Assembly: GCF_964204645.1 (NCBI RefSeq)
Contig: NC_134025.1
Coordinates: 29,356,001 to 29,420,000 of the forward strand
Direction: 5' to 3'
From: Tubulanus polymorphus
Taxonomy: Eukaryota > Nemertea > Palaeonemertea > Tubulaniformes > Tubulanidae
Length of the DNA stretch: 64,000 nucleotides
The notes beneath the pieces are model-generated. The model did not search any database. It was given only the letters and a program-made list of their open reading frames with translations, and was not told the origin of the DNA. Positions 3,835 to 38,219 of the stretch are shown here, one piece after another. The position numbers and the translations under genes were made by a program. Every line of letters begins with the position of its first letter. The stretch's first letter is position 1.

Positions 3835-5115
3835 TCATACGGAGTTGTGCGGAGATTTAGCCGGCTGGTAGTGTGTCATCAGGGATGAACGGGTATGACT
3901 CGTCATCGGTAACCAGTCGCTTTTCAGTGTCTTGGGGCAAACTATTTTCAGCACCAGTTTCCTGAAACGTTTCCCGACAAGGCAATAAATATAGAAATTC
4001 ACGCATGAATTTATCGCGGAAAGGATGTAAGTAGCGCGCATTGCGTACACAAGATTCAGGTTATGTTTTAGTGAGCTCGACGGAGACAGATACGAAGAAT
4101 AAAATACAATAGTGTTTAATATAACGGCAGGTGATTCTAATATAATAAAAGTAGTTACTACGGCGATTACGCGTTCGGTAACGTTATCACGTGACTCGCG
4201 TCCTTGTGACGTCAGACGCGACTGAATGCGGCGCGCTTTGCGAACGGCTCTAACGAGAAATATATTGAGAATCACGAGTAAAGTCAACGGCACGAAAAAC
4301 ATTATCAACAAGTATAGAATATTCACGTAGATCAAAGTAAAGTATTTGTTGTTCATGAGCATTGTATTATTAACGTACGGTTTCGTTAGATTTGTACACG
4401 GGTCGAGTTTATAGGCGGTTTTGACGTACCATATTTTTGGTATATTGTAGGCTACCGAAAATGCGCATACGAACGCTATTCCGAGCATGGCGTTACGTTT
4501 TGTACAAAATGACGTCGCGCGTAACGGTTTACAAACGGCAACGTAACGATCGATGGTGAGCAAAACGACCGTATAAACGCTGAAAGTTTTACTAACCCAC
4601 AACGCGAACCAGATGTATCGTTTAGCGTACATGAACCATTCGTAATATTCCACAAAACGGCGCGTAAACACAAATATATGCGGGAACGTGTAGAATAATA
4701 CGTACGTCACTAATACGAAGTTATCGGCGACGGAAAGAACTCGCAGAATTAAATCCGGGGTTCGACCCCCTCGAGCTCCTTCGCGGCGTAATACGATGTA
4801 TGATAGAGTGTTGGTGATTAATCCACAGAACGCGATTACCGATAAAACCGGTACGAATAACACGAAAATAAATATCTCGTAGTTCGGATTTTTCACGATA
4901 TTGCCGTCGTCGTAGATACATTTTAAACGGGCGATCGAAGGGACGCTTGTGTTGATGATTGTAACGCTGGGGCCGGTTACAGGCCGTTCATAGTCGTAAG
5001 GCGCGATGCCGCCATCATAAATTCCAGGGTTAGACGTAGGTTCAGGTGGCTGTGTATGCGATGGTAAGGCCATACTGACACCGGACCACACGATTACAGT
5101 ATTGATGTCAACCAT
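3835..5115 (-). CDS. Rhodopsin-like (class A) peptide GPCR, FMRFamide-receptor-like, coding sequence in a single exon
   Basis: The protein is 426 residues from the ATG at 5115, with an A at -3; this ATG lies 17 nt inside an exon that follows a strong acceptor (ATATCATTTCAG, exon edge 5131). Seven membrane helices are clear: about 80-108, 121-147, 166-191, 207-227, 258-289, 312-338 and 355-382. Class A marks are N102 in TM1, D131 in TM2, DRYVAVCKPL at 189-198, P276 in TM5, P329 in TM6 and NSCVNFYIYC at 369-378 in place of NPxxY. The last motif and the overall pattern resemble invertebrate FMRFamide-type peptide receptors; the ligand is unknown. The usual Cys at the top of TM3 and the TM6 CWxP Trp are not seen (TM6 reads LESP). 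N-glycosylation sequons are N55, N242 and N249. The frame stays open 78 codons further upstream, but that part runs through intron and a hairpin repeat, so I reject the longer start. A second Met (residue 15) is also possible. Confidence 0.93.
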   Translation of the reverse strand: MVDINTVIVWSGVSMALPSHTQPPEPTSNPGIYDGGIAPYDYERPVTGPSVTIINTSVPSIARLKCIYDDGNIVKNPNYEIFIFVLFVPVLSVIAFCGLITNTLSYIVLRREGARGGRTPDLILRVLSVADNFVLVTYVLFYTFPHIFVFTRRFVEYYEWFMYAKRYIWFALWVSKTFSVYTVVLLTIDRYVAVCKPLRATSFCTKRNAMLGIAFVCAFSVAYNIPKIWYVKTAYKLDPCTNLTKPYVNNTMLMNNKYFTLIYVNILYLLIMFFVPLTLLVILNIFLVRAVRKARRIQSRLTSQGRESRDNVTERVIAVVTTFIILESPAVILNTIVFYSSYLSPSSSLKHNLNLVYAMRATYILSAINSCVNFYIYCLVGKRFRKLVLKIVCPKTLKSDWLPMTSHTRSSLMTHYQPAKSPHNSV

Positions 5116-5219
5116 GTTAATACCACGGTGTCTGAAATGATATAAATAGGCATATATATTATATGTACACATATATATACACCCGATAGAATTGTGGTCA
5201 TCAATAGTAGGAACCATAC
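5116..5219 (-). other. 5' leader and 3' splice site of the GPCR coding exon
   Basis: Reading on the minus strand, TTTATATCATTTCAG ends at 5132, and 5131-5116 is then a short 5' UTR directly before the ATG. At least one non-coding upstream exon is therefore expected at a higher coordinate. A strong 40-nt exon candidate at 10217-10178 is one possibility, unproven. Confidence 0.55.
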
Positions 5220-5424
5220 ATGAAGAAATCCCACACTTCGAATTTAGAATTATACGATTAAATTTATTCTTACGAAACCACAGCGTTTCGGCTGTTGACT
5301 TACAGCCATCATTAGGTGGCTGTTCCACCTGATGATGGCTGTTAGTCAACAGCCGAAACGATGTGGTTTCGTAAGAATAAATTTAATCGTATAATTCTAA
5401 ATTCGAAGTGTGGGATTTCTTCAT
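5220..5424. mobile_element. 205-bp near-perfect hairpin (MITE-like) in the GPCR leader intron
   Basis: The arms are about 100 bp each and almost perfectly complementary. The left arm starts ATGAAGAAATCCCACACTTC, the right arm ends with its complement, and the centre loop near 5318-5324 is only a few bases. The 13-mer TAGTAGGAACCAT occurs on both sides (about 5205 and 5465), possibly an old flanking duplication. No coding capacity is supported. If transcribed, it would fold into a long double-stranded RNA. Confidence 0.85.
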
Positions 5425-34821: not shown

Positions 34822-37800
34822 ATGACTGGAACATCTTTGTTATTTGGTCTGAATGGACTTTTTTTATTTGCAATACTGTACGATTTAACAGTAGCTATAG
34901 GAGTTATCGGTGAGTAGAAATATCGCATGCCTTGGTGCTGGTTAAGGACCTGCTGTTACAACAGAATCGAATCGAGCTATTAATACTACACTTCAACTCG
35001 GGGCTCGATTGCACATGCTCTATGTGGTTGTATACAACTAAACTCATTCTAAAATGTCTCTATCGCTAGCAACAATATTCTCTTTACATCAAATACTGCG
35101 AAATCATTTCACATGAACATTTATCCTTTCACATTAAAACGATTGAACGATTGAAGTTCTGGAGTCTGTTATTTATAGTAGAATGTCTCATATTCGTTAT
35201 ATGCCACGTAAAAAGAATATTAGATTGTAAGTCCGTTGTCCATTGCTATGAGTTACAGCATTCTGAAGTTCCACAGTTCCACAGTTCGACCACTTCTGGA
35301 ACTGCATCCAGGACCAAGTTCAACCATGTTCTCGTTTTTGAGCCAATGGTTCAACGGATTACTATAAAACTTGGTCCTGCAGCCGGTTCCACAGTGTTTA
35401 ATGTTCATTTCCATCGCACCTTTTAGCCTAATAAATACGCGCTCAACTGACAAATGGATTCAGTTTATCGGAAATATGAGAAACTGCTTCGGAATGCCAC
35501 GAATTTATGACGCAATTTGATAATGGTTACCATGGAAACGGTTATAGTTGAGTAACGATATGATCGCATCCTCATCAGGACATGCGATATCAATTTAACA
35601 GCAGGATAAAAACTGATCCCGACCGAACAGAAAAATTAATTACAGCAATCGCATGATACAACGAGTCGGCAAACTACTTACTCACCGAGGAGTCGACAAA
35701 ATGCATTAGACACTTGCAAAAAACATATCACCAAAACACATGGATTCGAAAACAGCTATGTTATTTCCAATACCGCGCTCCACTTCGTTTCAAGGGAGTT
35801 TATATACTTTAACTATCAATACGTTACGTAATAGAATTGAATAAAACATTAGCAGAAATGCTCATTAGAAAAGTTAAGTCCTAAGAATTTGTCACAGCTT
35901 TCAACAATATCGCAGTTTCTACTAAAAGAAGGTGATCTGTTCCTTACTTGTTTCTTACTTTTATGATACATGCACAAAAATACAAACATTCCGTTTACCA
36001 TTAAAGTAAGAGTTACATCTAGAACATACAATCGCGATATTCAAGCCTGGTGGCCAAATTTTAAAAAGTAGTTGAAATCTAGTTTTATTTTCAGACGACA
36101 AAATTTGTAATTTCGAGTCGGCGTCATGCGCGTGGAATATTCCGGACGCCTGGAGACGAGTCAGCACAAGAGAACATTTTCCTCGGGTTGATCAAACATA
36201 TGGTAAGGAAATTACCACTGAAAATACTTTACATATAAACATGTCGTCTCTATGTATATGAATTCATGAATCTTTCATGAAATAGAAAATGAACAGTTTT
36301 TTTTTGTGATATGCATATATTTCCCAATAGGAGTTTATTACAATAAAGAAGGACACTTCCTGACATTAACCTTTAACGGTGCGCCTCCGATAAAGATGAC
36401 AACATCGACGTATATGACGTCGAATCCGGGAATGAAATGTATTCATTACTGGTACAACAAGAACCTCGAACACAAGGAAAGTGGTCAAAGAGAACGCGTT
36501 TTATACTTCGCGATTTATTTGGAAGAGAACGGTCTGAGAACGATAGTACCACCGCCTTTAAGATTCACGGGACGTCAAACGACGTATAACGCCGCTACCT
36601 GGAATCAAGTGGTTTTAAATTTCAATGTCACCGCGCACAGTTTTAAGGTAATAAATAGTCATGATCATAACGCTCGCAATTTGACATTTTGCTTTTCTAA
36701 AACAATGAAGTCTTTTGCTTACAGTTTATTATGGACGTAATCTGGCAGAATATCCCACCCGACGATCAGTTAAACTCATTTAGTTTAGATGATTTTGGAT
36801 ACTATGACGCTTCGTGCAAAGACGTTGGTAAGAAAATCGTCGATATTCCCGCCTTACAGACGAGAATTTCTAACGAAAAAAATGCAGTCAATCATAGCTA
36901 CGCGGTATAGATTAATTAACGTCATTCATTCATGAGCAACGCATGGATTCAATCACGATCCATGCACTTCAGAGATAATTCATAATCTCATCGAGCTTAC
37001 GACTGTCTGAAGTTAATCTCTCCTAATCCCGGTTACGTCATCGCTTCCTTTTGCCAGAATTCGACAAAATTCGTTGCTGATTTTCTTTGCTGATTTATTT
37101 TCAGAGGCTGAAATGCGTTTTTCGTGCAGTCCGTGGGCTAGATCGTTCCACTGTTTGAACGGCAGATGCATTAATGAGATGGATAGATGCAATGATGTGG
37201 ACGACTGCGGTGACAATTCTGACGAGTTGCCCGTGCATGCGCACTGTAATGCAGGGCTGTCTGCCAGTGAGTTGTTGAAACTTTATTACGTTAAAATATA
37301 ACTAGATTTCAATATTCAACATTACCAAGTCTAGCAAAAACTTTAAGAGCATCCAAATTGACAGGGCACTTGTCAATATATATCAGTGCAAGACTTTATT
37401 GCGCTTCATATTTATCATTCTCCTTAACAATCTAAGGCTGGTTTCGCTTGGTCCGATACCGGAATTTTTCTTCGGCGCGTTCGTTACAACCAGAATACGC
37501 TCTATCTATTCCGAATAGTATATGATCTGCAAACCTGATAGAAGCGACCGGTAACTATTCCTAAATCGGAATACGTTCAATCGAAACCAGCCTAAGTTTG
37601 GAATCCGTGTATTGCCAATTAAAAGGATCTAAATGTATTAGTTTTACAGATGGTAATCGGATTGACCTCAGTAGTTCTGATACTGATGTTGATGACGGGA
37701 ATATTTCGCTCCTGGCAGAAAGGACGATGTCGCCGCTGGATCAAACACAGACGCAACTCAACCACCATGACACCGGACGAGCCTCGAGAAATCCTCGATC

Positions 37801-38219
37801 CGGACACACGAGTTATACTCAGGGATAAATCAAAGCGTAAATTAGAACCCGAAGATGTCGTTGAATTGATACCGAGTCATTATCCCGTTCCTAAAAAACA
37901 GTCATCAGCGCCACCTATGAGAGATAGTTTAGTACAGACGGACGAATCGTTCCCGGTGAATGTGAGTTTTATCGAGACGCACAACGCGCCGTCTGCCGAG
38001 ACGCCGCCAACAACCGATCAAAACAACCATCACCGCGGTAAACATCCATTCGTTCGAGTGAACAGTAGAGGTGTACAAGTCGAAGAGGAATTCACGTTAG
38101 CCGGACTCGATGAAAATCTAATCAAGAAAGTATCCCGTGCTCGAAAATGTCAATCGTTCCATGACGACAGCAACCACGAGTTGACTGCTTCCAAAACATC
38201 GCGAAACTCGATTTCTTAG
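34822..38219 (+). CDS. Type I membrane protein: signal peptide, MAM domain, LDLa repeat, TM helix, cytoplasmic tail (six exons)
   Basis: Predicted exons are 34822-34909, 36095-36202, 36331-36647, 36725-36827, 37105-37266 and 37642-38219. All junctions are GT-AG and agree in phase, giving 451 residues. Residues 1-26 are a signal peptide. The MAM domain runs from about 31 to 204 with its four cysteines at 34, 41, 102 and 202 (CNFESASCAW, CIHYWYN, SLDDFGYYDASC). The LDLa repeat at 213-253 has six cysteines and DDCGDNSDE for calcium. A TM helix follows at about 264-282 (VIGLTSVVLILMLMTGIF), then a basic stop-transfer segment and about 165 tail residues. MAM domains mediate adhesion or dimer contacts and LDLa repeats bind ligands with calcium, so a surface receptor or adhesion role is likely; the ligand is unknown. 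The acceptor of the last exon is the least certain junction: the conventional-looking site 8 nt downstream changes the frame. Confidence 0.88.
34910..36094 (+). other. Intron 1 of the MAM/LDLa gene
   Basis: It runs from donor GTGAGT (34910) to acceptor TAGTTTTATTTTCAG (36094). It holds a hairpin element at 35297-35390. On the opposite strand an ATG at 36031 opens a short hydrophobic leader-like frame (MVNGMFVFLCMYHK) up to two GTAAG donors near 35960; I do not call it a gene. Confidence 0.7.
35297..35390. mobile_element. Hairpin element in intron 1 of the MAM/LDLa gene
   Basis: TGGAACTGCATCCAGGACCA is matched by TGGTCCTGCAGCCGGTTCCA in inverted orientation. An inner pair, GTTCAACCATG-TTCTC and GAGCCAATGGTTCAAC, continues the stem. 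The stem is imperfect, so the insertion is not recent. Left of it, GTTCCACAGTTC is locally duplicated. Confidence 0.6.
37267..37641 (+). other. Last intron of the MAM/LDLa gene with tandem 3' splice sites
   Basis: The donor is GTGAGT at 37267. Two acceptors follow: TATTAG (ends 37641) and TTTTACAG (ends 37649). The exon before ends in phase 1. Only the 37641 site keeps the transmembrane frame (reads ILQ then MVIGLTS). The 37649 site gives N followed by 58 more open codons to a stop at 37826-37828. A MITE occupies 37436-37592, leaving about 50 nt for the branch point before the acceptors. Confidence 0.65.
37436..37592. mobile_element. 157-bp PIF/Harbinger-like MITE with TAA duplications
   Basis: The ends GGCTGGTTTCG and CGAAACCAGCC are exact 11-bp complements flanked on both sides by TAA, a 3-bp duplication typical of PIF/Harbinger elements. 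The interior has ATTCCGAATAG-type motifs shared with 32858-32930. It sits in the last intron of the MAM/LDLa gene, 57 bp before the final 3' splice sites. Confidence 0.85.

Follow-up and report, generated by a model that had tools for sequence, protein, structure and literature searches.

Intron 2 of Drosophila Sxl and beta-globin beta-110 both depend on the downstream of two AGs for splicing, and the second step may select the upstream one; SPF45 is described as binding the upstream AG (from the part of PMC2374985 cited here). Human minor acceptors that disrupt the reading frame are held down by decay (PMC8055015). Here, we analyzed a tandem 3' splice site in the nemertean Tubulanus polymorphus, within a stretch of 64,000 nucleotides (contig NC_134025.1, positions 29,356,001 to 29,420,000; hereafter the window) of a 267.8-Mb genome in 77 contigs, whose genes are spliced and of animal type. 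The gene concerned occupies 34822-38219 on the plus strand of the window and has six exons, all introns being GT-AG. By its predicted protein, it is a MAM-LDLa single-pass receptor gene with an ambiguous 3' end in its last intron, where AGs ending at 37641 and 37649 lie 8 nt apart. Our leading interpretation, which we put somewhat short of an even chance, is that both acceptors may be used, giving a membrane form and a soluble form of the receptor.

Two candidate acceptors in the last intron of a MAM-LDLa receptor gene

The predicted ectodomain contains a MAM domain (residues 34-196, 39 bits) and then an LDLa domain (residues 217-253, 32.4 bits), both above the Pfam curated cut-offs and in the order expected of a MAM-LDLa single-pass receptor. 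The transmembrane (TM) segment and the long, hydrophilic cytoplasmic tail lie within a 198-codon stop-to-stop frame (37623-38219), the first few codons of which are intronic, upstream of 37642. An earlier, sequence-only reading of this locus had stated that the penultimate exon ends in phase 1, that acceptor 37641 keeps the TM segment and tail in frame, and that 37649 looks like the better acceptor but shifts the frame into a 59-residue tail. All of this was borne out, including the stop at 37826-37828 and the predicted 318 residues of the shifted form; the membrane form is predicted at 451 residues (Table 1). Use of 37649 would yield the soluble product that had been proposed, since the ectodomain is kept and the shifted frame is predicted to stop before any TM segment. 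The TM segment and tail are in frame with the ectodomain only via 37641, or via the rival models weighed below.

Acceptors were scored with a matrix built from the same genome by aligning eight myosin genes to solved myosin sequences. The spliced aligner used for the myosin introns knows only GT and AG and thus cannot favor good contexts; 72 introns were aligned, 21 were dropped for a weak flanking match, and the 51 with a strong protein match on both sides were kept as controls. On this scale, 37641 is weak, at -2.8 bits, with only 1 of the 51 control acceptors scoring lower, whereas 37649 reaches +10.0 bits, above 39 of the 51. No pyrimidine tract precedes 37641. A TTTT run sits between the two AGs, so that 37649 is probably the site recognized when splicing begins with its first step. 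The remaining acceptors of the gene score 12.8, 1.5, 4.2, and 12.7 bits; weak sites are thus tolerated, but none is as weak as 37641.

The spacing of 8 nt falls in the 2- to 12-nt class of tandem 3' splice sites, and this layout is unusual against the control introns. None of the 51 has an AG within 3-12 nt downstream that outscores the AG used, and the nearest upstream AG of the used acceptors is at least 17 nt away in all of them (minimum of 12 nt among all 72 aligned introns). The corresponding distance is 8 nt for 37649 and 16 nt for 37641, and it is 12, 34, 14, and 47 nt in the other four introns of the gene. Since 37641 is at odds with the strength rule and 37649 with the first-AG rule, mixed use would be expected.

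In the mechanism that we propose, 37649 would recruit the early splicing factors, and exon joining would then use either the first AG, giving the membrane form, or the strong one, giving the ectodomain with its 59-residue tail. The branch point may set this choice. A motif scan detected two branch-point-like adenosines, one 19 nt before 37641 (position 37622) and the other 9 nt before 37641 and 17 nt before 37649 (position 37632); branching at 37622 would favor 37641, and branching at 37632 would favor 37649. The same kind of scan across the 51 control introns gave no clear branch-point position. We consider that the membrane form would be the selected product and that the soluble form, made alongside it, would most likely be a leaky by-product. 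Classical decay should be avoided by transcripts with a stop codon in the last exon, and the soluble form would escape decay because its stop lies there.

Table 1. Features of the MAM-LDLa gene and of its last intron (positions in the window)
Feature	Position	Strand	Description
Exon 1	34822..34909	+	Start codon and predicted signal peptide (by eye); donor TCG/gtgagt, 6.6 bits
Exon 2	36095..36202	+	MAM domain start; acceptor 12.8 bits
Exon 3	36331..36647	+	MAM domain; acceptor 1.5 bits
Exon 4	36725..36827	+	MAM domain end; acceptor 4.2 bits
Exon 5	37105..37266	+	LDLa domain; phase-1 end; donor 37267 CCA/gtgagt, 5.3 bits; acceptor 12.7 bits
Weak alternative donor	37233..37234	+	CCC/gtgcat, phase 0, 1.64 bits; with 37649 keeps the TM frame
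Miniature inverted-repeat element	37436..37592	+	157 bp, in last intron; ends GGCTGGTTTC/GAAACCAGCC; TAA on each side
Branch-point-like adenosines	37622, 37632	+	TTAAA and CTAAA, respectively, from motif scan; each one base off YTNAY; putative function
Upstream AG	37640..37641	+	tgtattag/TTT (TTAG); weak, -2.8 bits; TM frame kept
Last exon, membrane form	37642..38219	+	TM segment (by eye) and cytoplasmic tail; 451-residue protein, stop 38217-38219
Downstream AG	37648..37649	+	TTTTACAG, ttttacag/ATG; strong, +10.0 bits; frame shifted
Last exon from downstream AG	37650..37828	+	59-residue hydrophilic tail; stop TAA 37826-37828; 318-residue protein

The acceptor region of exon 2 (36082-36094) likewise contains two AGs, a ctag and, 12 nt downstream of it, ttttattttcag. 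As judged by eye, either AG of this pair is in frame, and the resulting proteins would differ by four residues.

The shifted frame and a paralogue of the gene

Beyond the junction codon, the shifted frame is open for 58 codons, and its 59-residue tail has no Pfam match. We found this openness to be only mildly unusual. Among synonymous redraws that keep the TM-frame protein, the shifted frame was open in 3.9% with the codon usage of the gene, in 6.7% with permuted codons, and in 2.1% with the codon usage of the genome, all of which are post hoc figures. In 111 control coding windows, 1 was open in the same relative frame and 12 were open in the other shifted frame.

The sequence-only reading had emphasized a hydrophilic tail rich in Asp, Ser, and Thr. 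The share of these three residues is 0.38, versus 0.27 in redraws (P 0.01), for a measure picked post hoc because that reading had named it. The hydropathy of the tail (-1.18), in contrast, equals that of the redraws (mean of -1.14, P 0.44). NTN codons read one frame back become NNT, and we rejected hydrophilicity as an argument for function.

These measures, together with codon usage, gave no clear indication of selection on the second frame; the residues of a hydrophobic segment are unusual in any event. With a codon fit of -0.07, the shifted frame exceeds 11 of the 12 open controls of the other shifted frame and the single open control of its own frame. Over the overlap, both frames lie below the 5th percentile of control true frames (0.056); the first five exons also fall under this value (0.031), and the distal tail lies above it (0.097). 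The synonymous codons of the membrane frame within the overlap are not exceptional (z -1.03), the 5-95% control range for 59-codon myosin windows being -2.09 to 1.96. Separately, we observed that synonymous choice in exons 1-5 (34822-37266) is unusual relative to the myosin controls (z -2.75; distal tail, z 0.67).

Nine matches were listed in the genome itself, six of them to the gene and the others to loci that we call L004, L005, and L006. L004 (C2:22813500-22822000) is a MAM-LDLa-TM paralogue with an LDLa domain recognized by Pfam (33.7 bits); its LDLa exon shares 46% identity over 52 residues with that of the window gene, and the end of the MAM domain also matches. It has a TM exon with a tail. 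The junction between its LDLa-side exon and its TM exon lies in phase 1 on both sides (by eye), the same phase as in the window gene, and this favors an ancestral membrane frame. The TM acceptor of L004 is also a double AG, a TAG followed by TTTCAG at a distance of 6 nt (3.0 and 9.6 bits). Unlike in the window gene, the 6-nt spacing means that either AG keeps the TM frame, with no membrane/soluble consequence. The two-AG acceptor may be old in this receptor family, a change to 8 nt in the window gene having then created a membrane/soluble choice at the second splicing step, but we regard this scenario as quite improbable, and two genes are too few to separate an inherited double AG from a chance one. 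Of the other two loci, L005 appears by eye to be part of a lectin/LDLa/GPCR gene, and the match to L006 falls in LDLa repeats. Among viral records, 1 stretch matched a pattern for the tail exon, and among bacterial and archaeal records, 32 stretches matched a pattern for the MAM exon; none was confirmed as a relative, and these searches are uninformative on animals.

Several of our results weigh against the use of both acceptors. The gap of 12.8 bits between them could reflect very little use of 37641. In codon fit, the shifted frame does not surpass redraws keeping the membrane-frame protein (P 0.77), and the membrane frame itself fits codon usage poorly over the overlap (-0.156), below the value of the shifted frame. 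Furthermore, the LDLa domain of the window gene ends in DE-x6-C, and a gap of x6 occurs in 0 of 61 LDLa domains surveyed, which hints that the frame of exon 5 may be off by one base.

Alternative explanations

The least improbable alternative is that 37649 serves as an early recognition site and that joining always takes place at 37641, the first AG that follows the branch point, so that only the membrane receptor would be made. Consistent with this model, which we judge unlikely, the 16 nt upstream of each of the 51 used control acceptors are free of a further AG, and the TTAAA motif at 37622 lies 19 nt before 37641. The model has to accommodate an acceptor without a pyrimidine tract that scores under 50 of the 51 controls. 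The human catalogue of tandem acceptors, in the part cited here, points both ways: upstream minor acceptors tend to stronger expression than downstream ones, but how much a minor site is used correlates with its relative strength, and within coding regions minor acceptors are more often downstream (PMC8055015).

Marginally less probable, and to be taken seriously, is a one-base length difference at about 37230-37266, caused by an assembly error or a frameshift allele. In the ordinary sequence, exon 5 would then end in phase 0, and 37649 would be the sole acceptor, leading into the TM frame. The spacing survey covered 61 distinct domains, from 22 LDLa loci and L004-L006, in which the gap from DE to the last Cys is x2 in 50, x3 in 5, x4 in 5, and x7 in 1; the surveyed domains are top scoring and many belong to a single expanded family, which leaves unusual spacings under-represented. 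When the reading is shifted after DE, the window gene acquires the usual DE-x2-C ending, whereas a chance Cys appears at that place after a one-base shift in 0 of the 61 domains. The strong acceptor would also become productive. However, this ending is common rather than strictly defining, and the window LDLa domain passes Pfam without it. Pfam barely prefers the shifted reading (36.9 versus 36.5 bits), and codon usage scores both readings at -69.6 bits, a zero difference that would be low if the frame were true (control quartiles of 2.9-8.2). Moreover, the LDLa exon would end in phase 0, at odds with the phase-1 end of its L004 counterpart (by eye), and the explanation requires that the error or allele fall within one small region of a gene that is intact elsewhere. 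If the length of exon 5 were indeed wrong, the locus would illustrate that one base can imitate a splicing switch.

A regulated switch, in which tissue or stage would control the choice between 37641 and 37649 and hence between a membrane receptor and a decoy receptor, is possible but has in our view a low probability. It has no specific support beyond the anatomy, namely, the two frames and the acceptor scores. The post hoc Asp/Ser/Thr share and the codon-fit ranking among open controls described above would agree with it. Against this, the probability of the open frame is 0.02-0.07, the hydropathy is as expected, the codon fit is no better than that of redraws, and the tandem acceptor of L004 is in frame.

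We consider it very unlikely that 37649 is now the main site of a mainly secreted product and that the TM-tail frame is a relic, perhaps following insertion of a repeat in the intron. The acceptor scores do favor 37649, and the inserted repeat (37436-37592) ends 49 nt before 37641, but the TM-tail frame has remained open (37623-38219) and its distal part shows ordinary synonymous choice (z 0.67). Hardly credible is a membrane form made by joining the phase-0 donor at 37233 to 37649, which would keep the TM frame and sum to approximately 11.6 bits, compared with approximately 2.5 bits for 37267 with 37641, but which would drop the end of the LDLa domain with its sixth and last cysteine and rely on a donor scoring below the 5th percentile of controls (3.3 bits).

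The sequence-only reading had also raised the case of a missed exon between 37267 and 37641. We searched 37300-37629 for AG/GT pairs that enter in phase 1 and leave in phase 0 and found no plausible candidate. Only two such pairs were open, with summed scores of +4.5 bits (a 14-nt exon within the inserted repeat) and -4.9 bits. The pair 37386/37551 would fit by length but has a closed frame (by eye; it is absent among the open candidates). A missed bridging exon was rejected as unlikely.

Other features and known systems

The miniature inverted-repeat element in the last intron is repeated in the genome, with at least 55 match rows, 40 of 130 candidates having been scored, a count that includes its own copy and in which some rows are pieces of one copy. 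Apart from its own copy, the matches listed are 71-89% identical to the element.

Many LDLa matches were found on contigs C6, C12, and others, dozens of them in long open frames, most of which span approximately 1,030-1,570 residues. In 3.1-kb cut-outs of two of these loci (L020 and L026), we recognized by eye unbroken C-type-lectin-like, LDLa, and leucine-rich parts followed by a rhodopsin-like membrane region. The long frames with LDLa suggest a large receptor expansion. A muscle-type myosin gene (L008, C4:4125126-4126944) contains four adjoining matches to the same part of the head, with profile positions within 112-152, which look like mutually exclusive exons. Elsewhere in the window, on the minus strand, a 515-residue open frame (3838-5382) matches the rhodopsin family of G protein-coupled receptors (7tm_1, 71.2 bits), and a 184-residue open frame (208-759) has no Pfam match and shows, by eye, a polar tail beyond a hydrophobic segment.

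Tandem acceptors and soluble receptors made by frame-shifting splicing are both kinds of event already known. A limited literature search, covering titles and abstract openings, revealed neither a description of this gene nor an 8-nt tandem acceptor separating membrane and soluble forms. If both junctions are used, an ambiguity of 8 nt would let a single promoter and one set of exons supply both a membrane receptor and a secreted ectodomain, and the locus would offer a compact case for studying how the second splicing step decides between the first AG and a stronger one.

Among described systems, a soluble variant of the TGF-beta type II receptor resembles the predicted soluble form in that a splicing frameshift removes the TM segment and adds a short new C terminus, but, as outlined in PMC8461249, 149 nt are lost there, versus 8 in the window gene. 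Human RNase kappa-02 likewise derives a distinct protein from a subtle, frame-shifting splice event; it differs in losing four bases and using another start codon, and its abstract describes no membrane/soluble choice (PMC4010519). The window gene shares with the entries of TassDB2 (PMC2878309) and of the human catalogue (PMC8055015) two acceptors within 2-12 nt of each other, and its 8-nt spacing changes the reading frame. The human catalogue is based on transcriptome sequencing (RNA-seq), whereas the tandem described here is predicted from genomic sequence and has its shifted stop in the last exon. In Sxl intron 2 and beta-110, a downstream AG supports splicing and an upstream AG may be the one joined in the second step (PMC2374985); the window gene resembles this type of 3' end in pairing a downstream AG in good context with a weaker upstream AG, here at +10.0 and -2.8 bits, and a similar division of roles between its two AGs is proposed from the sequence.

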